Source: a virus. From it: a stretch of 42,386 nt of DNA. This document shows positions 1-42,298 of this stretch, in pieces (position 1 is the stretch's first letter; each line of letters opens with the position of its first letter). The stretch covers positions 1-42,386 of IMG/VR virus record IMGVR_UViG_3300037247_000910, one strand, 5' to 3'. The notes below the pieces were generated by a model. The model saw nothing but the letters and a program-made list of their open reading frames with translations, was not told the DNA's origin and did no database searches. Both the position numbers and the translations under genes were made by a program.

Positions 1-15
1 TTTTGAAACAAAATG

Positions 16-99
16 TGCCGAAGCGGGGATTCGAACCCCGACATCCTTGCGGACATTAGGTCCTGAACCTAACGCGTCTGCCAATTCCGCCACTTCGGC
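16..99 (-). tRNA. tRNA-Leu (anticodon CAG)
   Basis: On the minus strand a full cloverleaf folds: 7-bp acceptor stem GCCGAAG/CTTCGGC, D arm, anticodon stem TTAGG/CCTAA around loop TTCAGGA (anticodon CAG), a long class II variable arm, and T stem CGGGG/CCCCG with loop TTCGAAT. The 3' CCA is not encoded; the discriminator base A is followed by CAT. The 5' half (61-99) is the prophage attachment repeat, so everything upstream of the gene's 5' end is now prophage DNA. Confidence 0.95.
61..99. repeat. attL: attL core (39-bp direct repeat)
   Basis: This is identical to 42260-42298; the bases on both sides differ (60 is G against C; 100 is G against T). It covers tRNA-Leu nucleotides 1 to 39, from the 5' end to just past the anticodon loop. 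The strand crossover presumably lies near the anticodon arm. Confidence 0.92.
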
Positions 100-180
100 G
101 TAATGGGCGGTAGGTGTGTTGTATCGTGTTTTAGGCTCTTAAGCATTTTAAGGTAAATATCTTACACAGATTCAGCGTGT

Positions 181-4490: not shown

Positions 4491-5078
4491 TTGAAAACAG
4501 GAACTAAATCAATTCTGTTTGGAATACATCAATTCATACTGCACCCTCTTATGGTTGTATGGGCATGGCGTATCCTTTATTACCGATGGCCTACCTTCCA
4601 TGAGTGGTGCGCCATCATTACGCATGATCTTGGATATTGGGGATCTCCGAATATGGACGGCATAACGGGAGAAAGCCATCCTGAAGCACCGGCACGTTGG
4701 TGGAGAAAACATTTTTTAAAATTTGGTGAAAAAGTGGCCTATGAGATTGTAGGCCACAGTCGTTTTTATGCTGCCTTGAATAACCAGGATCTATCCGGGT
4801 TGTTTCGTGCAGACAAATTAAGCATGGCCCTTTACCCAAGATGGTTATACCTATTGCTCGGAAATCTCAGCGGCGAAATAAAGGAATACATGACTCACGC
4901 CAGTACGAGAAAGGGTAAATATATAGACATAATCAAAGCGGGCAAAAGCCAAATCCAATGGTTAATTGAGACACAGGCCCACATGGCATTGATGGGTTTA
5001 CACGGTGACAATTATGGACCGGTGGCAAGGCAGATGAAAGCGGATAAAGAAAGGAGAATAGCAAGTGAAAATAATTAA
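4491..5078 (+). CDS. HD-domain-like phosphohydrolase
   Basis: 195 residues from TTG (4491). The stretch THDLGYW (residues about 44-50) provides an HD pair; further histidines follow at SHPEAP and VGHSRFY, a metal-ligand pattern of HD-type hydrolases, and FRADKLS resembles the distal Asp region. Substrate unknown; nucleotide hydrolysis would suit its place before thyX. The TTG start lies inside a spacer repeat; an in-frame ATG at 4551 is the alternative, but would cut conserved-looking HQFILHP residues. It overlaps thyX by 14 bases. Confidence 0.55.
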   Translation: MKTGTKSILFGIHQFILHPLMVVWAWRILYYRWPTFHEWCAIITHDLGYWGSPNMDGITGESHPEAPARWWRKHFLKFGEKVAYEIVGHSRFYAALNNQDLSGLFRADKLSMALYPRWLYLLLGNLSGEIKEYMTHASTRKGKYIDIIKAGKSQIQWLIETQAHMALMGLHGDNYGPVARQMKADKERRIASENN

Positions 5079-5757
5079 ACAGAGTTGGTCGTTTGTTGTA
5101 CACCCTGAATGGCTAGGGATGCTAAAGCTAATAGAAGATGCTGGGAAAACATGCTACAAAAGTGAGAGCGGAGGTACTGCGAGTTCTTATAAGGCTTTCG
5201 CAAAGAAGATGATTGATTCAGGACATCATTCCGTAATCGAACACGGCAATATATCTGTTCGGATAATAACAGATAGAGGCGTAACTCATGAATTAGTTCG
5301 TCACCGATTAGCCGCATACTCTCAAGAGAGCACGAGATATTGTAATTACAGCAAGGACAAATTCGGCAATGCGATAACCGTGATTTTACCTGTTTGGTTT
5401 TATAGTATACCCGATGAATGGCATTCCTATCAAACAATCCCTGGGGGTTACACATTGGGAGATGCTCAGACGAAAGAGAAACAATATTATGATTGGAAAA
5501 TAGCAATGGCAAGGAGTGAGGAAAGTTATTTCATGTTGCTAGATGATGGACAAACTCCGCAAGAAGCCAGAAGCGTCCTTCCAAATTCTCTTAAGACGGA
5601 AATTGTTATGACAGCAAACCTGAGAGAATGGAGACATGTATTCTCGCTAAGATGTTCACCTAAAGCACATCCTCAGATAAGAGAATTGATGATTGATATG
5701 CTAACTGAATTTAGAAATACGATTCCTGTAATATTTGACGACATACCGGAGGCATAA
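5065..5757 (+). CDS. thyX: Flavin-dependent thymidylate synthase ThyX
   Basis: 230 residues. The ThyX signature RHRx7S is present (RHRLAAYSQES, residues about 79-89), followed by STRY. HHSVIEH upstream and the C-terminal LREWRHVFSLR segment with CSPKAHPQIRE match the family. ThyX makes dTMP from dUMP using FAD, NADPH and methylene-tetrahydrofolate. The GTG start has AAGGAG 8 bases upstream and overlaps the HD-like gene. It supplies thymidine for phage replication. Confidence 0.96.
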   Translation: MKIIKQSWSFVVHPEWLGMLKLIEDAGKTCYKSESGGTASSYKAFAKKMIDSGHHSVIEHGNISVRIITDRGVTHELVRHRLAAYSQESTRYCNYSKDKFGNAITVILPVWFYSIPDEWHSYQTIPGGYTLGDAQTKEKQYYDWKIAMARSEESYFMLLDDGQTPQEARSVLPNSLKTEIVMTANLREWRHVFSLRCSPKAHPQIRELMIDMLTEFRNTIPVIFDDIPEA

Positions 5758-6306: not shown

Positions 6307-7380
6307 ATGAAAATACAGGTGGATACGGAGGCAATCAGGAAGGGCGTGCAGGTGGTCCGGAATGTTGTATCGGGGAAGGGTGCTGATGCGTTTCTGCATG
6401 ACATCATGGTAAAGGCTGAAGGGGATCATATTGAACTGTCAGCGACTAACCTGGAGGTTAGTCTACAGTACCGGATTGCTGGCGCCACCATTGAAGACCC
6501 AGGCATGATGTTGTGTCCTGAATCGAAATTAGCTCCCATCTTGCAGGAGTGGCAGGCTGAGAGCATAGGTATAAACGAATCGAAAAGGACGTGCAGCATA
6601 AAAGGGAAGGGCACATCATTCAGGATAACGTGTGCTAACCCGCAAGCGTTCCCGGCTATACCAAAGTTTAATGATAAGGATTGCATCGAGATAGACAGGA
6701 ATGCGCTGGTGGACATGATAAAGAAGGTGGCGTTTATAGGCTGTGATGGTGTGTTCTTGTCAGTTGTGAAAGACGAGGCAATAATGGTGTCGAATGACGG
6801 ACGGAGGCTGGCGGAGGTCATCAAGAAAATAGGAGTTTCTAAAGATGCAAGCTGTATTATCCCCATGAAGACGATACCACAGATATTGAACGTTATCAAG
6901 GACCATGAGGGCGCCGTAAAGATAAAGATAGGAAAGAAACGTATTTTCGTACAGGCCGGAAACATAACGCTCTGTTCGCAGTTGATAGAAGGGCAATATC
7001 CTGATTATGCGGACGTGATACCGGCGGATCTGGATAAGGAAATCACGGCAGAGAGGGAGGTGTTTTTCTCCGCCGTGCGCAGGGCCGGCGTGATGACGAC
7101 TGACGAGTTTAAATTGTTGAGCTTTACATTTGGGGATAATAAGTTGCATTTAATGTGTAATTCGCCTGATGTGGGGGAGGCTCAGGTGGATATACCCGTT
7201 GAGTATGAGGGTGATAAGATCGTAATCGGCCTCAATCCGGATTATGTGGATGACCTGTCAAAGGTACTCGATACCGACAAAGTAACGATGAGGCTCAAGG
7301 ACAACAACACCGCATGTGTGTTTGAATCCCTTGCATACCGATATGTCCTGATGCCGATGGAGTTGAATGCAAATGTTTAA
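6307..7380 (+). CDS. dnaN: DNA polymerase III sliding clamp (beta subunit)-like
   Basis: 357 residues, close to the usual 366. It begins with a strand typical of DnaN, has NDGRRLAEVIK near residue 158 (the conserved DGHRLA region), the QLIEGQYPDY motif, and ends with YVLMPMEL, the conserved C-terminus. The loop before the DGRRLA region is shorter than in bacterial clamps. It encircles DNA and would tether the host polymerase to phage DNA; no phage DNA polymerase is present. SD GGAG upstream. Confidence 0.93.
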   Translation: MKIQVDTEAIRKGVQVVRNVVSGKGADAFLHDIMVKAEGDHIELSATNLEVSLQYRIAGATIEDPGMMLCPESKLAPILQEWQAESIGINESKRTCSIKGKGTSFRITCANPQAFPAIPKFNDKDCIEIDRNALVDMIKKVAFIGCDGVFLSVVKDEAIMVSNDGRRLAEVIKKIGVSKDASCIIPMKTIPQILNVIKDHEGAVKIKIGKKRIFVQAGNITLCSQLIEGQYPDYADVIPADLDKEITAEREVFFSAVRRAGVMTTDEFKLLSFTFGDNKLHLMCNSPDVGEAQVDIPVEYEGDKIVIGLNPDYVDDLSKVLDTDKVTMRLKDNNTACVFESLAYRYVLMPMELNANV

Positions 7381-13639: not shown

Positions 13640-13802
13640 GACTGGACAAGACTGGACATAAATCAATGTCCAGTTATACAGCATGTGTAACTTGTTGTGA
13701 TATAAAAGATTATGAATAAAAAGGACTGGACAAAAAGGGGGACTGGACAAGTGTATTTGTCCAGTCTTAATCGTTTGTATATCAATAGGTTAGGACTGGA
13801 CA
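13640..13802. repeat. ori: Iteron-like repeats: putative replication origin
   Basis: GACTGGACA occurs five times on the plus strand (13640, 13650, 13724, 13741, 13794), with complementary copies TGTCCAGT at 13667-13674 and TGTCCAGTC at 13758-13766. A partial copy is at 13843-13848, and one-mismatch variants GACAGGACA lie at 13957 and 14315. They follow the helicase gene directly and lie in a 795-base stretch without a gene. Iterons beside a replication initiator are a standard theta-origin layout. Confidence 0.65.
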
Positions 13803-13809
13803 GGACTGT

Positions 13810-13859
13810 CCTCCCCCTAAAGGGGGGAGGAGGGAGCTGTTTAGTCCAGCTCCTCCTCC
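13810..13859. other. Two overlapping, mutually exclusive GC hairpins
   Basis: CCTCCCCC (13810-13817) pairs with GGGGGAGG (13823-13830). Alternatively GGAGGAGGGAGCTG (13826-13839) pairs with CAGCTCCTCCTCC (13847-13859) with one bulged G. Both cannot form together. The second loop contains TTTAGTC, part of the iteron motif. Possible origin structure or RNA switch. Confidence 0.5.
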
Positions 13860-13952
13860 TTGGGCTTGAGGGGAAAAGGTACTTTGAAAGGCTGCAAGCG
13901 GTAAGGATAGCAAAGCAGCGTAGGTTTTTGTTAGTCGGGTAAGAGTTTAAAT

Positions 13953-14327
13953 GGTTGACAGGACAGCATTTAATTTGACAGGGATGGAGAGTCGGAAGCA
14001 TGGCCTTTTTGCGGGCCTGCAGGGGCACAGATGGCACCAGTTTTAAGCAATAATACGGTTGTATGGTGTGGGATATATTGATGTGAAAGAGGGCACAGAA
14101 GCGATCCTGTAGCGTTTTTGGTTTGTTTTTTAATCTTATATTTATAGAATTGACAATACAGTGTTTTAGATGTGGCGGTGGCGGAACTGGTAAACGCAAA
14201 GTGAATGCATCATCATACAATACTTGTCGTTGGCTTGGGATGCGCTAAAGCTATTCAAAACAAACGACTTGCAAGTTCAAATCTTGCCCGCCACAGCTAA
14301 AACATATAAGGGTTGACAGGACAACAT
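13953..14327. repeat. 17-base direct repeats flanking the tRNA-like element
   Basis: GGTTGACAGGACARCAT is found at 13953-13969 and 14311-14327 with one difference. Each contains a perfect TTGACA and a GACAGGACA variant of the iteron. They may be outlying iterons, promoter elements or a duplication that brought in the tRNA-like sequence. Confidence 0.5.
14172..14295 (+). tRNA. Unusual tRNA-like element (class II-like)
   Basis: A 124-base element has a perfect 7-bp acceptor stem GTGGCGG/CCGCCAC with discriminator A, positions TG, a Leu-type D arm (GCGGAACTGGTAAACGC), and a perfect T arm GCAAG-TTCAAAT-CTTGC. Between them a weak anticodon stem AAGTG/TACTT (14199-14203 with 14221-14225) closes a 17-base loop, and GTCGTT/AACGAC (14226-14231 with 14263-14268) forms a variable stem with a 31-base loop. 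No CCA is encoded. Too divergent to assign an anticodon; it may be a non-coding tRNA mimic, an intron-bearing tRNA or a decayed tRNA. Confidence 0.5.
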
Positions 14328-15974: not shown

Positions 15975-16048
15975 AGAGCATCAGAGAATGCCATTGCTTA
16001 ATATATTAAGCAACTAATCATATAACACGCAGAGCCTCAGAGAAGGCC
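15975..16048. promoter_or_regulatory. Late-operon control region: palindrome between direct repeats
   Basis: A perfect 20-base palindrome (TTGCTTAATA and its complement, 15994-16013) lies between two 18-base direct repeats, AGAGCATCAGAGAATGCC (15975) and AGAGCCTCAGAGAAGGCC (16031), which differ at two positions. This is the only sizeable gap before the packaging and structural genes, so a late regulator probably binds here. Confidence 0.55.
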
Positions 16049-16101
16049 GAATTAGTACACATCTGGAATTAACCAGGTGCGTATTGATTCGGCCTTTTTT
16101 T
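16043..16101 (+). terminator. Rho-independent terminator ending the early region
   Basis: AAGGCCGAAT (16043-16052) pairs perfectly with ATTCGGCCTT (16087-16096), followed by a run of seven T. An inner hairpin ATCTGG/CCAGGT (16061-16077) fills the loop. It stands between the early and late operons and could be the target of antitermination. Confidence 0.8.
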
Positions 16102-16128
16102 ATTGGATTTTTTTCAGGATAAAAACAC

Positions 16129-16740
16129 ATGGCGGAATTTTTTAAGATGCATATTAATATGAGGGAGTTGGAGAGGGAGTTTGACGACCTCCCCATTGTT
16201 ACTCAGAAGGCAATGGTGAACGCCCTCAACAAGGTTGGCAGGCTAGCGAATAAAGCGATAGCGAAATTTATTAAGGATAATTACAACATACCTGCTAAAT
16301 CGCTTAAGATTGGCTATTTGGTCAAGCTTATCAGGGCTGATGCCAGGAAGGCATCTGATACAGGGCGGGCATGGAGGGCATTCTTTACGATTGTTATTCG
16401 CAAAAGAGCTATTAATCTGATTATGTATGGAGGCGAACAGATAATAGGTGGTGGCGTTAGTGTGAGGGTCAAACGTACAACCAAAGTAATAAGAAGAGCA
16501 TTCGTCTCTGTTTGGAAATCAGGATCACATAAACGTTTTATTTTTGTCCGGGATCCTAAATTGGGGACGTTTATGAGTAAATACGGTAAGCGCACTAAAC
16601 GCCGAGCACTCTATGGTCCTTCCATTGCAGACCTGTACGGATCCATCCGGGCACGAAAGATTATTGATGATACGATTGAGAAGAATTTCCAGCCGATGCT
16701 TGATAAGGAGTTTGAGAGGCAGTTTGAGAGACGCCGGTAG
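16129..16740 (+). CDS. Minor tail protein Z (GPZ)-like
   Basis: 203 residues. The basic C-terminal half with RFIFVRDP, KRTKRRALYGPSIADLYGS is the recognisable pattern of prophage minor tail protein Z (lambda gpZ family), which acts at the head-tail end of the tail. In lambda, Z lies among the tail genes; here it stands ahead of the terminase, so the order is rearranged. AGGA precedes the ATG. Confidence 0.75.
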   Translation: MAEFFKMHINMRELEREFDDLPIVTQKAMVNALNKVGRLANKAIAKFIKDNYNIPAKSLKIGYLVKLIRADARKASDTGRAWRAFFTIVIRKRAINLIMYGGEQIIGGGVSVRVKRTTKVIRRAFVSVWKSGSHKRFIFVRDPKLGTFMSKYGKRTKRRALYGPSIADLYGSIRARKIIDDTIEKNFQPMLDKEFERQFERRR

Positions 16741-23863: not shown

Positions 23864-23881
23864 AAATAGACAAGATAGAAG

Positions 23882-23911
23882 ATTTACGAATTACGAATTA
23901 CGAATTACGAT
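23882..23911. repeat. ATTACGA 7-bp tandem array
   Basis: About four consecutive ATTACGA units followed by ATTTCAG units lie between two head genes. Similar arrays, in either orientation, occur at 26979-26991, 31089-31124, and shorter forms at 4463-4490, 9740-9756, 10789-10815 and 23337-23367. Confidence 0.75.
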
Positions 23912-26917: not shown

Positions 26918-26978
26918 TAATGATTTACGATTTGGGATTTACGATTTGGGATTTAAAAAATTCGTAATTCGTAATTCG

Positions 26979-26991
26979 TAATTCGTAATTC
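26979..26991. repeat. TTCGTAA tandem array
   Basis: About four TTCGTAA units (26980-27000) follow several TTTACGATTTGGGA units (26921-26965), so the gap contains complementary halves that could fold back. The major tail gene SD starts at 27000. Confidence 0.7.
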
Positions 26992-31053: not shown

Positions 31054-31088
31054 TTTTAGATTTACGATTTGAGATTTCAGATTTAAAA

Positions 31089-31124
31089 ATCGTAATTCGT
31101 AATTCGTAATTCGTAATTCGTAAA
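31089..31124. repeat. CGTAATT tandem array, fold-back with preceding TTACGA
   Basis: Five CGTAATT units follow GATTTACGATTTGAG units (31060-31085); the outer GATTTACG and CGTAAATC are exact complements, so the spacer could form one long hairpin. The next gene starts at 31127 with little room for an SD. Confidence 0.7.
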
Positions 31125-31126
31125 TC

Positions 31127-37251: not shown

Positions 37252-37388
37252 CATAGAAATATAGGCAGCCATTCAAGTAGTTAGTTTGAAATTCCTTAAC
37301 CTGCGGGCCTTCTCCTTTCCCCCGCCTGGAAAATGATAACTTAACGAAAGAGTGGTTGCCCTTAATATTCCTCGTTCCAAAACCCCTT

Positions 37389-38540
37389 ATGAGCATAAAA
37401 GACCTTGTCAGTGCAATAAATAAAAAAGAAGATTATGACAACTTCGCAGAGGAAGTCACCATACTCAGCGAGGCCAAATCTGGCAATAACTACAGCCTGT
37501 ATACCGTCAAGAACAAAAACAACGTGACATTCCAGAACGTACCGGGCGCCGGAGGGATAACAGACAATGGGGTCATGGGATTTATAAACGGAGACAGGGC
37601 AAGGCCAACCCTCCTGGGATCAGGTACCAAAGTAAACAACACGGCATCGAACGTATCAGGAGCCGGCTGGCCGGCAGTGAATATAGAAGCTGATGTCAGG
37701 GCATTATTTGCCGGGGGCAAAAAAACCGGTGGAGAAAGCAATGTAATTGATTATGTAAATATCCAGACATCAATGAACGCCCTAGACTTTGGAGATCTAA
37801 CTATAGACCAATTCGATTTAACCTCAAGTAGCGATGGCACGAAAGCATTATTTGCTGGGGGCTTTAATGGTGTCACGACAGACACCATCGATTATGTAAC
37901 GATAGCGATACTAATGAATGCCCTTGATTTCGGCGATTTGACGGTAGCCCGAGGTACTTTAGCCTCAAGCAGCGACGGCACGAAAGCAGTATTCGGCGGG
38001 GGATGGCCGGTAGCGGGCTTTGACGTAATCGATTATGTGACGGTAGCTACATTAATGAATGCCCTTGACTTCGGAGATCTTACAGCGGGGCGATTTGAAC
38101 ATTCCTCAAGTAGCGACGGCACGAAAGCAGTATTCGCCGGGGGATGGGATACTGATAATTCAAATGTAATCGATTATGTGACGGTAGCAACGACAATGAA
38201 CGCCCTGGACTTTGGAGATCTTACGATCGCCAGATACGGTTTAGCCTCAAGTAGCGACGGCACGAAAGCATTATTCGGCGGGGGCGCAGAGGGAGGCTTT
38301 GATACAATCGATTATGTGACGGTGGCCACCCTGATGAATGCCCTCGATTTTGGAGATCTGACCGTGGCCAGATATTACTTAGCTTCAAGTAGCGATAGCA
38401 CAAGGGCGTTGTTTGGCGGAGGCACAGGCCCATACTTTAATGTAATCGATTATGTGACGGTAGCGACATTGATGAATGCTCTGGACTTTGGCGATCTGAC
38501 AGTCGCTAGATCCAGATTCGCCTCAAGTAGTGGGAATTAA
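37389..38540 (+). CDS. Beta-propeller receptor-binding-like protein A
   Basis: 383 residues. Residues about 1-105 are an attachment domain nearly identical in DNA to that of the next gene. Six 45-residue Kelch-like repeats follow, each with (N/D)xIDYV, MNALDFGDLT and (K/R)AxFxGG. Six such repeats predict a six-bladed propeller. Start 37389 is chosen because the protein then aligns with its neighbour; no SD is visible. Similar repeat proteins are tail adhesins in other phages. Confidence 0.75.
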   Translation: MSIKDLVSAINKKEDYDNFAEEVTILSEAKSGNNYSLYTVKNKNNVTFQNVPGAGGITDNGVMGFINGDRARPTLLGSGTKVNNTASNVSGAGWPAVNIEADVRALFAGGKKTGGESNVIDYVNIQTSMNALDFGDLTIDQFDLTSSSDGTKALFAGGFNGVTTDTIDYVTIAILMNALDFGDLTVARGTLASSSDGTKAVFGGGWPVAGFDVIDYVTVATLMNALDFGDLTAGRFEHSSSSDGTKAVFAGGWDTDNSNVIDYVTVATTMNALDFGDLTIARYGLASSSDGTKALFGGGAEGGFDTIDYVTVATLMNALDFGDLTVARYYLASSSDSTRALFGGGTGPYFNVIDYVTVATLMNALDFGDLTVARSRFASSSGN

Positions 38541-38547
38541 TATAACA

Positions 38548-39720
38548 ATGAGCATAAAAGACCTTATCAGTGTAATGAATAAAAAGAAAAACTATAAGAA
38601 CTTCGCAGAGGAAGTCACCATACTCAGCGAGGCCAAATCTGGAAACAACTACAGCCTGTATACCGTCAAGAACAAAAACAACGTGACATTCCAGAACGTA
38701 CCGGGCGCCGGAGGGATAACAGACAATGGAGTCATGGGATTTATAAGCGGAGACAGGGCAAGGCCAACTCTTTTAGGATCAGGTACCAAAGTAAACAACA
38801 CGGCATCGAACGTATCAGGAGCCGGCTGGCCGGCAGTGAATATAGAAGCTGATGTCAGGGCATTATTTGCCGGGGGCCGGGAACCCACAAAGGTAAATAC
38901 AATTGATTATGTAACGATCACAACGACAATGAATGCCCTCGACTTTGGAGATCTTACGGTTGCCAGAATGGAGTTAGCAGCAAGTAGCAGTAGTTCACGG
39001 GGATTGTTCGGGGGCGGTTATCTTTCGTCAGATCTTAACGTAATCGACTACGTAACATTCGCAACGACAATGGACGCCCTTGACTTTGGCGATCTTACCG
39101 TTGCAAGGGAGTATTTGGCTTCATGTAGTAGCGGAACCCGGGCGCTATGGGGCGGGGGCACACTTTGGTCTAGTCCGGCACAAAACGTAATTGATTACGT
39201 CACGATCGCAACGCTAATGAATGCCCTTGACTTTGGCGATCTTACCATAGCCAGAGGGGGTATAGCTGCATGCAGCAATACAACACGGGGATTATTTGCA
39301 GCCGGATGGTTAGATGCCGATCCATGGATTGTAAATGTCATTGATTATGTCACGATCGCAACGATAATGAACGCCCTTGACTTTGGCGATCTTACCGTAC
39401 TTAAACAAGTTTTAGGCGCAGCAGCTAATGATACCCGGGCCTTATTCGGGGGCGGAACTAACGGTTCCAATTATAATGTAATTGAATACGTTACCATAGC
39501 AACGACAATGGATGCCCTTGACTTTGGAGATATTACCGTTGCAAGATATGACATAGTTGCAACCAGTAGTGAAGAACGTGCGCTATTTGCCGGTGGGTAT
39601 GATGGCGGTGGTTATCAAGACACGATCGATTACGTAACGATTGCGACAACAATGAACGCCCTGGACTTTGGAGATCTTACAGCGCCAAGAAAAGAAATGG
39701 GCGCATGTAGCGGGAGTTAA
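38548..39720 (+). CDS. Beta-propeller receptor-binding-like protein B
   Basis: 390 residues, a tandem duplicate of the previous gene. The first 330 or so bases differ at only a few positions, while the six Kelch-like repeats have diverged at variable sites but keep the IDYV-MNALDFGDLT framework (one repeat has IEYV, two have MDALDFGD). Suggests two alternative or co-displayed adhesins sharing a common anchor. The start has only a weak GGAA. Confidence 0.75.
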   Translation: MSIKDLISVMNKKKNYKNFAEEVTILSEAKSGNNYSLYTVKNKNNVTFQNVPGAGGITDNGVMGFISGDRARPTLLGSGTKVNNTASNVSGAGWPAVNIEADVRALFAGGREPTKVNTIDYVTITTTMNALDFGDLTVARMELAASSSSSRGLFGGGYLSSDLNVIDYVTFATTMDALDFGDLTVAREYLASCSSGTRALWGGGTLWSSPAQNVIDYVTIATLMNALDFGDLTIARGGIAACSNTTRGLFAAGWLDADPWIVNVIDYVTIATIMNALDFGDLTVLKQVLGAAANDTRALFGGGTNGSNYNVIEYVTIATTMDALDFGDITVARYDIVATSSEERALFAGGYDGGGYQDTIDYVTIATTMNALDFGDLTAPRKEMGACSGS

Positions 39721-39726
39721 TTAATT

Positions 39727-40563
39727 ATGAATGATATAGAAAAAACCCACACAAACAACATGGTCGGTGAAGCAAATATAAAGCTGGCGAAAACCATCAA
39801 GAATTATCAGATCTTAAAATCGAGCTTCGGCAGATCAAAGTCACAGTGGATGGAAAGCAATATGGCCATATCTGCCCAAACACCGCTGAGAAACGTAAGA
39901 CACCTACTGGCACGAATAGAGAGATCTCACCAGGCATGTAAAGAGGCAGAATATAAAATAAAAAAGCTGCAGATCCGGCAGCAAATAAAAGAACGTGATA
40001 TCAGCAAAGAGAAAGATGATTTAAAGAAGAAAATCATGGAGGTTGAGATAGAGGAGATCTCACATAAGATAAAGTCTGCTATGTATTATTTTGAAGGCGC
40101 CGTAAAAAAGATACATCATAATTACGACTGCATACAACAGATTATGGATGCAAACAAATATACCAGTTTTGACGAGATCGATTTCGAGAAGGAAGAGGAG
40201 GAATACCATATCAAGACAGCCATAAACCAGAGTGTAAGATGCGTAAGGCAGTCTGGCCGGATTGACCTTGGTAATCAGGAATACCTTGAACAATGCGGGA
40301 TAAATCCGGGCGTAGCACAAAGAGCGATAGAGGGGTTTCTCCATGTTGAAAACGTACAGCTCAAAGCGGAATGCTACGATTCCTCAACCACAAGCCTCTA
40401 TAAATTTCTGGAAAAATGCTATCAGGATTTCAAAGGATCTTCAAAGAAGAGATTGGAGGAGCTGGGTATTGAACGCGGATTCATGGAAGGCGTGATGTAT
40501 AAAACGACAGACGAAGATAAAAAACTTTTGAAGGCGCCGCCAGAACTAAACCTACCTACGTAG
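39727..40563 (+). CDS. Coiled-coil phage protein after the adhesins
   Basis: 278 residues. Residues about 60-150 are strongly coiled-coil and basic (KIKKLQIRQQIKERDISKEKDDLKKK). C-terminal half is mixed (RQSGRIDLGNQEYLEQCGINPGVAQRAIEGF). Family not recognised; its place as the last late gene suggests a virion or late accessory role. Confidence 0.6.
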   Translation: MNDIEKTHTNNMVGEANIKLAKTIKNYQILKSSFGRSKSQWMESNMAISAQTPLRNVRHLLARIERSHQACKEAEYKIKKLQIRQQIKERDISKEKDDLKKKIMEVEIEEISHKIKSAMYYFEGAVKKIHHNYDCIQQIMDANKYTSFDEIDFEKEEEEYHIKTAINQSVRCVRQSGRIDLGNQEYLEQCGINPGVAQRAIEGFLHVENVQLKAECYDSSTTSLYKFLEKCYQDFKGSSKKRLEELGIERGFMEGVMYKTTDEDKKLLKAPPELNLPT

Positions 40564-40740: not shown

Positions 40741-40818
40741 GCCGGCCGCCGCCTCTCCACAGGTACAAGATGTTGATTGTGATATATCAAGAAAAACAAT
40801 AATATTATTATTTTTTAT

Positions 40819-40846
40819 TTGACATATATAAAACATTGTTTAACAT
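40819..40846 (+). promoter_or_regulatory. Candidate promoter of the small RNA
   Basis: TTGACA (40819-40824) is followed after 16 bases by TAACAT (40841-40846), within very AT-rich DNA. Two ACATTGT copies and an ATCATAA-CTA-TTATGAT hairpin (about 40857-40873) follow, which may be regulator sites. The -10 is imperfect. Confidence 0.45.
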
Positions 40847-40897
40847 TGTGTTACATATCATAACTATTATGATGTAGTAATATATTATTATAAAAAA

Positions 40898-41057
40898 AAA
40901 GAAAGACACAACTGGCAGGGGGTTGGACGCCCTGCCTCACAAATCCGGCCGGATAGTTAAGGTTCTGGAAGCCTTAACTAAGGGAGTCCCAAACAGATTT
41001 GCGATGTTATGTCTTTCTTATAATAAAGCCCGGGTAAGAAATTGCTTGGGCTTTTTG
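40898..41057 (+). ncRNA. Candidate structured small RNA
   Basis: An outer stem AAGAAAGACA/TGTCTTTCTT (40899-40908 with 41010-41019), extended by AAC/GTT, encloses GGCAGGG/CCCTGCC (40914-40936), TAGTTAAGG/CCTTAACTA (40954-40980) and GGGAGTCCC (40982-40990). An ATCCGGCCGGAT palindrome (40943-40954) overlaps the second stem. A 13-bp terminator hairpin follows. No open frame fits. The compact, closed fold with its own terminator strongly suggests a real RNA; it does not look like a family I know. Confidence 0.65.
41025..41056 (+). terminator. Strong intrinsic terminator of the small RNA
   Basis: AAAGCCCGGGTAA and TTGCTTGGGCTTT form a 13-bp stem (with G-T pairs) capped by a GAAA tetraloop, followed by TTTTT. 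It may also stop leftward integrase transcription on the other strand, where the T-run is poorer. Confidence 0.85.
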
Positions 41058-41171
41058 TATTTACATCTTGCAGCATGTTGGCATAAAAATACAGGCGTGT
41101 CAAGATTTTTTAAGCCAAAATCCCCAATTATCGGAATTATTTCATGGGGTAGGATTTTAAAGCCAAATCCC

Positions 41172-42197
41172 TTAAATCTGCAATTTGTCAATCTCCCGTC
41201 TATCCGGGCATAGGTGGCCGTACAATTCAGTAATATAAACACTCGAATGACCTACCCATTTGGAAACTTCCCAGGGCGATATACCCCGCGTCAGGCAATA
41301 ACTGATAAACGTATGACGCAATGTATGTATTGTCACATCGTGCAATCCTATCTCGTCAGCAACCCTCCTGAAGTCCCTGGCAATGGTATCCTTGTGGATC
41401 TTCTCATTATTACGCAGAAAACAATAACCTTCTTTGTGGCCATTGAAGATAGTTAATTCCTGATGCAGCGGCACCGCCCGTTCCTTGCGTGACTTCGTGA
41501 GAAAACCATCCTTGTTTTTGACATAGATTAACCTCTTTCTTGGATCCACGTCTCCGTATTCAAGGTTTATGAGCTCCGACTTTCTCATGCCGGTATAGAT
41601 CGCTGCTAATATGAATGTTTCAAGATACGTGCCCTTCGTTTCATTTAATATGGCCTTCGTCTCATCTTTAGATAGGAATCGTTTCTTATTTTTCTGGATA
41701 CCCCGGATCGGATCAAGCTTCCGAATAGGATTAGATTTGATATGGCCGAGTTTACAGGCATGATTAAGCATTGCACCTATTGTGGTTATATGGTTTTTGG
41801 CGCTTTTTGGCTGCATGGATCCTAATAATTTATCCTGATATTTTTCAAAGTGATGATAATTGGTAGTGAGGCCGAGTTCGCTGATATACTGCAGGTCAGT
41901 TTCATTATGTATATAATCCAGGAATGATCTGAGGTAATGGGCCTTGACTGGATACCAATTTAGGGAGGAATTCCCACCCTTGAGCTTCAAATGATATCCA
42001 ACAAACTCATCTATTCCTACCTTCTTCAGTTGGGGGATATCAAATTCTTGCCTGTATACCTTTTCATACTCTCGACTGGCAAACTCAACAGCGAGGATCC
42101 TTGCCTTGGTCTTTGTGCTGCCAAATGACAGGTGACCATTCAAAATGAACCGATAATGCCAGAATTTACCTCTTTTCCGCAACCCAAAATCACTCAT
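41172..42197 (-). CDS. int: Tyrosine integrase
   Basis: 341 residues. N-terminal arm-binding and SAM-like core-binding regions, then the catalytic domain with TGMRKSEL (Arg I), HTLRHTF (His-x-x-Arg), WVGHSS (His/Trp position) and the nucleophile Tyr in ITELYGHL. It integrates and excises the prophage at the tRNA-Leu. Its 5' end is 62 bases from attR. In the lysogen it lies downstream of the displaced host tRNA promoter. No SD is evident. Confidence 0.95.
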   Translation of the reverse strand: MSDFGLRKRGKFWHYRFILNGHLSFGSTKTKARILAVEFASREYEKVYRQEFDIPQLKKVGIDEFVGYHLKLKGGNSSLNWYPVKAHYLRSFLDYIHNETDLQYISELGLTTNYHHFEKYQDKLLGSMQPKSAKNHITTIGAMLNHACKLGHIKSNPIRKLDPIRGIQKNKKRFLSKDETKAILNETKGTYLETFILAAIYTGMRKSELINLEYGDVDPRKRLIYVKNKDGFLTKSRKERAVPLHQELTIFNGHKEGYCFLRNNEKIHKDTIARDFRRVADEIGLHDVTIHTLRHTFISYCLTRGISPWEVSKWVGHSSVYITELYGHLCPDRREIDKLQI

Positions 42198-42202
42198 ATC
42201 AT

Positions 42203-42227
42203 TGACAAAAACGAAACAAAATTGTCA
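42203..42227. promoter_or_regulatory. Inverted repeat between int and attR
   Basis: TGACAA (42203-42208) and TTGTCA (42222-42227) are exact complements with a 13-base A-rich centre, just upstream of the int start. It could be an operator for int or an arm site for the recombination complex. Confidence 0.4.
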
Positions 42228-42259: not shown

Positions 42260-42298
42260 TCCTGAACCTAACGCGTCTGCCAATTCCGCCACTTCGGC
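42260..42298. repeat. attR: attR core (5' half of tRNA-Leu)
   Basis: The same 39 bases as 61-99. This copy is a truncated tRNA gene without a 3' half. Host DNA begins at 42299. Confidence 0.92.

Follow-up and report, generated by a model that had tools for sequence, protein, structure and literature searches.

The window analysed here, a temperate-phage record of 42,386 nt, is a prophage with a little host flank, because the 5′ half of a tRNA-Leu(CAG) gene at 15–99 (Rfam 15 match at 16–99) recurs as a 39-bp direct repeat that marks the att sites. At the right end, rightward tail-like genes run to 39720, the phrog_1409 gene follows to 40563, and a 608-bp non-coding stretch then leads to int on the opposite strand. 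Within that stretch lie a predicted structured element, a promoter-like site and a terminator. The features concerned are these:

61–99 and 42260–42298: attL and attR, a 39-bp direct repeat equal to the 5′ half of tRNA-Leu(CAG)
39727–40563, plus strand: last rightward late-region gene, a PHROG match to phrog_1409 (function unassigned)
40819–40846, plus strand: putative promoter-like site, TTGACA-16-TAACAT, matching at 10 of 12 positions
40892–40900, minus strand: T9 run (A9 on the plus strand) at the 3′ base of the closing stem as read on minus, a likely termination site of the int transcript
40899–41019, probably minus strand: structured core element of 121 bases, a predicted closing stem enclosing a 9-pair side hairpin and a long arm
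40899–40912: low-coordinate arm of closing stem H1, AAGAAAGACACAAC, pairing with 41006–41019
41006–41019: high-coordinate arm of H1, GTTATGTCTTTCTT, pairing with 40899–40912
40914–40936: side hairpin H2, GGCAGGG/CCCTGCC (40914–40920/40930–40936), a perfect 7 bp plus two inner pairs
40937–41004: long arm H3–H5, comprising an 11-position stem (two positions A·C on plus, G·U on minus), an inner stem and a 9-bp hairpin
40944–40955: 12-base palindrome ATCCGGCCGGAT
41025–41057, plus strand: intrinsic terminator for rightward (late) transcription, with a 13-bp stem, GAAA loop and T-run
41172–42197, minus strand: int, a phage tyrosine integrase of 341 aa (Pfam PF00589, 2.8e-23; PHROG_1, 2.5e-52)

Sequence matches at the integration site identify this as a phage of anammox bacteria of the Candidatus Scalindua type. 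In a collection covering 84,980 species, only six genomes contain the exact 83-bp tRNA sequence; four belong to Candidatus Scalindua, one to Candidatus Brocadiaceae and one to another planctomycete. One contig of Candidatus Scalindua sediminis matches window positions 1–164 at 88%, covering the tRNA and 65 bp of the phage left end. A second contig carries the matching right junction and then the start of a homologous integrase (55–61%), where the contig ends. The tRNA matches and these junctions together argue for an anammox-bacterium phage, and in Candidatus Scalindua sediminis the same tRNA-Leu site holds a related prophage whose assembly breaks off within int (L126, L127).

Several other features lie along the window. 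An inverted repeat TGACAA...TTGTCA (42203–42227), located between the start of int and the att core, may be a site where a regulator acts on the int promoter. A near-perfect 17–18-bp palindrome, CAACAATTGTTGAGATT...AATCTCAACAATTGTTG (1636–1683), sits amid divergent regulator genes, with a leftward HTH protein at 1159–1623 on one side and rightward genes from 1722, including a CII/CP76-like gene at 2219, on the other; it is a probable lysogeny-switch operator. The phage encodes a DnaN DNA polymerase sliding clamp (6307–7380) and a ThyX thymidylate synthase (5065–5757). Two tandem paralogous tail-region genes (37356–39720) have a 330-bp stretch in common at 95% identity, with a repeated motif like VIDYVTIATLMNALDFGDLT, possibly allowing receptor-protein variation via recombination. 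Repeats built on the unit AATTCGTA lie between late genes in both orientations (23881–23910, 26957–26991 and 31085–31126).

Architecture, fold strength and strand of the element

The stems described in the first-pass annotation, a 10-bp outer stem and perfect 7-bp and 9-bp inner stems, are all present, and the outer one is really a 14-position stem. Read directly, AAGAAAGACA (40899–40908) and TGTCTTTCTT (41010–41019) form ten of ten pairs. Past one mismatch this stem extends as AAC/GTT, giving 13 of 14 positions paired on plus and all 14 on minus, with a U–G pair. The 9-bp hairpin, TAGTTAAGG/CCTTAACTA (40954–40962/40972–40980), is perfect at every pair. The 13-bp GAAA-capped terminator with its T-run was also correctly placed, and the stretch between the last late gene and int is non-coding as described: an overlapping 96-aa frame has no Pfam match, and no coding sequence was recognised. 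The palindrome had been offered as a dimerisation site, a role that loses its footing because the predicted fold, on both strands, already pairs most of the palindrome's bases.

Folding models confirm a real and statistically strong structure at 40899–41019. The core has a minimum free energy of −56.9 kcal/mol on minus (z −7.8) and −48.9 kcal/mol on plus (z −4.7), each against 500 shuffles, and 44–48 of its 45–48 pairs are retained in all longer transcripts tested on both strands. Over 40898–41060 the plus strand reaches −68.6 kcal/mol (z −6.6), a value matched by none of 200 shuffles. Comparably strong folds (z −6 to −8) occur elsewhere in the phage, at 13741–13860, 16021–16140 and a few other places. 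On inspection these are mostly simple terminators, plus an iteron-like cluster at 13.7 kb, and the nested, multibranched architecture of the element distinguishes it from them. The iteron-like cluster (13640–13960), with six copies of GACTGGACA where 0.32 are expected, nested hairpins and the strongest-folding window of the phage, is a candidate replication origin or regulator-binding array. Elsewhere in the same intergenic stretch, an 11-bp perfect inverted repeat, ACATCTTGTAC/GTACAAGATGT (40588–40598/40763–40773), surrounds 164 nt, and the block it encloses has no significant fold (z −1.5 to −1.9).

The element probably lies on the minus strand, that of int, having originally been misassigned to plus. 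The minus core gains 8.0 kcal/mol over plus because A·C mismatches on plus become G·U pairs. Three isolated mismatches in the two long stems (40909/41009, 40939/41002 and 40946/40995) are C·A or A·C on plus and G·U on minus, and further such positions (40949/40992, 40950/40991 and 40953/40988) extend the arm on minus only. The opposite, plus-favouring preference appears at only two positions, both at inner-stem ends. The closing-stem duplex itself is worth −16.9 kcal/mol on minus versus −12.6 on plus. Where selection acts on a stem as RNA, transitions are expected to persist as G·U pairs on the expressed strand. When undirected transitions were simulated from the minus fold, a minus preference of this size arose in about 3% of trials, an indicative figure from a strand test on few positions. 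The same simulation gives no significant result when taken two-sided (0.38), since its starting sequence, with all pairs intact, already favours plus.

The ends and flanks of the fold also differ between strands. The T9 at the minus-strand foot is one of four A or T runs of at least 8 in the whole 42-kb window, although local AT-richness makes such a run less surprising than this count implies; GC is 19% over 40800–40919, the block beside the element that holds the promoter-like site. The stable stem and following U-run of an intrinsic terminator are both found on minus, as the 14-position stem and T9, in an atypical form in that the stem closes a multibranch loop. Loops of functional RNAs are usually A-rich; in the minus fold, C is by far the commonest unpaired base (12 C, 7 A, 5 T and 1 G), and the plus-strand loops are richer in A and G. 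The neighbouring hairpin at 41025–41054, AAAGCCCGGGTAA-GAAA-TTGCTTGGGCTTT followed by TTGTATTT, has 13 pairs and is worth −17.9 kcal/mol on plus versus −8.9 on minus. Its asymmetry is opposite to that of the core, as expected of the terminator of a convergent operon. We found no other intrinsic terminator for the late operon in the intergenic stretch, and no simple intrinsic terminator on minus between the int stop and the element.

Searches for relatives and comparison with known systems

Searches recovered no homolog with which the element could be aligned or compared for compensatory changes. With blastn, the region had no match among phages (best noise E 6) and only AT-rich noise among plasmids. 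In IMG/VR, int and the neighbouring late protein used as baits found no relatives; the terminase retrieved a distant match at 24% and, from a single metagenome, a pair of roughly 10-kb fragments that lack the int end. Structural DNA patterns in IMG/VR gave 17 matches for the closing stem, one for the side hairpin and 21 for the 9-bp hairpin. Closing-stem matches have different folds and are chance-like, and those of the other two patterns do not fit the model, the side-hairpin match being a plain terminator. A covariance model found no match in 61 Brocadiales and 392 Planctomycetota genomes, a scan that a diverged relative could escape, as the model came from one sequence and ran with stricter filters in large scans and no positive control. 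With filters off, parts of two related prophages (Scalindua sp. SCAELEC01, G004; and G036) gave weak noise only; these prophages have head or tail genes in common with the phage and different sequence at the corresponding end.

Among close int homologs (43–47%), at least two stand beside Zot-like genes of filamentous-phage type and yielded no comparable region. Such close relatives of this tailed-phage integrase adjoin Zot-like genes in filamentous-type prophages of Brocadiales genomes (L075, L076 and L079), contexts that suggest exchange of the integrase between unrelated phage types. In another Brocadiales genome, a hairpin with a T-run end (L035:1501–1534; ATGTCTTTCTTTTTTTT-GTAATAATA) resembles the minus end of the element at 86% over 35 positions, probably by chance.

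The element matches no known RNA family, in line with the first-pass annotation, which had recognised none. Across the whole window, only the tRNA at 16–99 passes the Rfam 15 gathering threshold; permissive settings gave a best match in the element region of 17.1 bits against a cut-off of 50. Two roles suggested at the outset drew no support. For defence, there is no PADLOC match near the element. For action on host RNA, a 25-nt match (88–92%) in two Brocadiales genomes, within coding sequence resembling the alpha-CTD part of rpoA, was considered as a possible antisense and rejected, being absent from all six Scalindua/Brocadiales genomes checked. A retron was also rejected: the closing stem of inverted repeats around internal hairpins is similar to retron ncRNA (msr-msd), but the record holds no reverse transcriptase (RVT_1) match.

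In phage lambda, the folded sib element beyond int reduces Int expression from one of two promoters (PMC2951348, PMC5300877). As with lambda tI/sib, the present element is predicted to fold as RNA 3′ of int, on the strand of int, and to finish in a terminator-like end; like sib it would affect what becomes of the int message. It may work like sib in part. The two have no sequence match, and RNase III processing and antitermination are features of lambda. Integration parts sib from int in lambda, where attP lies between the two; here the element and int are on the same side of att (repeats at 61–99 and 42260–42298) and are not separated. Bacterial small RNAs that derive from 3′ UTRs or contain terminators likewise combine a stable fold with a U-run ending a coding message, whereas here the closing stem spans a multibranch loop rather than forming a simple hairpin, and no such Rfam family reaches threshold. 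ROOL and GOLLD are non-coding structured prophage RNAs without a known protein partner (PMC12286853). The predicted RNA here is like them in both respects, but they are several times larger, have conserved multi-domain folds and give no Rfam match here.

Readings of the element

The element is a real structure of no known family. Most likely it belongs to the integrase message, on the other strand from that of the first annotation. As its probable strand is that of int, it is best read as the 3′ end of the int mRNA. Our tentative preference, held at somewhat under an even chance, is for an int 3′-end module combining a terminator with a protective structure. The better minus fold, the G·U orientation, the T9 foot and the persistence of the fold in long minus transcripts favour it; the unusual terminator stem closing a multibranch loop, the C-rich loops and the lack of a homolog, and hence of covariation, count against it.

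The original proposal, an independent plus-strand small RNA of about 160–205 nt running from the 40819 promoter to the 41025–41057 terminator, is possible but doubtful. What it said of a novel RNA holds as far as a real structure without a copy in the searched collections; the independent plus-strand unit fares less well, as G·U orientation, energy and T9 all favour the int strand. Its promoter is consensus-like, yet is weak evidence because sites of this quality occur at near-chance frequency (four found versus 1.7 expected in the stretch), and the surrounding block, at 81% AT, would be expected to yield such matches. Correctly oriented and 6 nt beyond the closing stem, the terminator can also be explained as that of the late operon. 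The z of −6.6 for the whole unit, retention of the full fold in a 40853–41057 transcript and the more RNA-like loop composition in A and G speak for plus, against a core z of only −4.7 and three isolated long-stem mismatches that all become G·U on minus.

A locus without an RNA role and maintained by nothing seems distinctly unlikely, be it a plain region of convergent terminators or a cluster of hairpins that arose by chance or is a relic, such as a decayed mobile element. It would fit the lack of conservation in any collection searched, the element's absence from the two related prophages and the several other phage windows, mainly plain terminators, that fold about equally well. It fits poorly with a z of −7.8 and a three-part nested architecture under a 14-position closing stem. 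No second copy was found in the window or in 61–62 Brocadiales genomes, which makes a spread MITE unlikely, and we rejected that identity. Highly improbable is a structure acting as DNA: a folded single-strand site, a replication element beside the AT-rich block, where GC falls to 19%, or an attC-like recombination site. Consensus attC ends are RYYYAAC...GTTRRRY. The element is an imperfect palindrome adjoining a tyrosine recombinase gene, and its ends, ACACAAC...GTTATGT, resemble attC with one mismatch each, but the integrase scores far under the integron-integrase cut-off (TIGR02249, 52.4 bits versus 265), leaving no IntI partner, a 23-nt hairpin occupies the place of attC spacers and the true att site is the 39-bp tRNA-Leu repeat. 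An iteron-type origin is likelier at 13.64–13.80 kb, and a role as DNA would leave the strand bias unexplained.

For the int 3′-end module, the sequence features, the predicted fold with its strand asymmetry, the T-run and the gene order are observed, and we infer how the message would be transcribed, terminated and stabilised. Leftward int transcription would run about 150 nt beyond the stop codon, producing the 121-nt multibranched structure, and stop in T9 at its foot, near 40890. The closed structure would both act as intrinsic terminator and shield the message from 3′ exonucleases; a stable small RNA derived from int might be left over. The plus hairpin at 41025–41054 would end the convergent late operon at about 41057. 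Late and int messages would thereby overlap at their 3′ ends by about 165 nt, and, speculatively, late transcripts could anneal to the int message within this overlap and reduce expression of int, somewhat like lambda sib.

It is also conceivable, if rather unlikely, that the element represents a structured RNA not yet described and confined to a lineage of anammox-bacterium phages, located where int and the late genes converge. Such an RNA, either set free from the 3′ end of int or transcribed from a promoter of its own, would set the lysogeny–lysis balance via late/int pairing. A paper search on prophages and Scalindua yielded nothing on lysogeny regulation in anammox-bacterium phages, a subject on which, to our knowledge, little is known. 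A general lesson is that any fold read on one strand needs scoring on the opposite strand too. If the locus is merely a convergent-terminator region, it is ordinary. If the element is transcribed, it would place a defined RNA where the late and integrase messages collide, and would extend control of integrase from the 3′ end beyond enteric phages.
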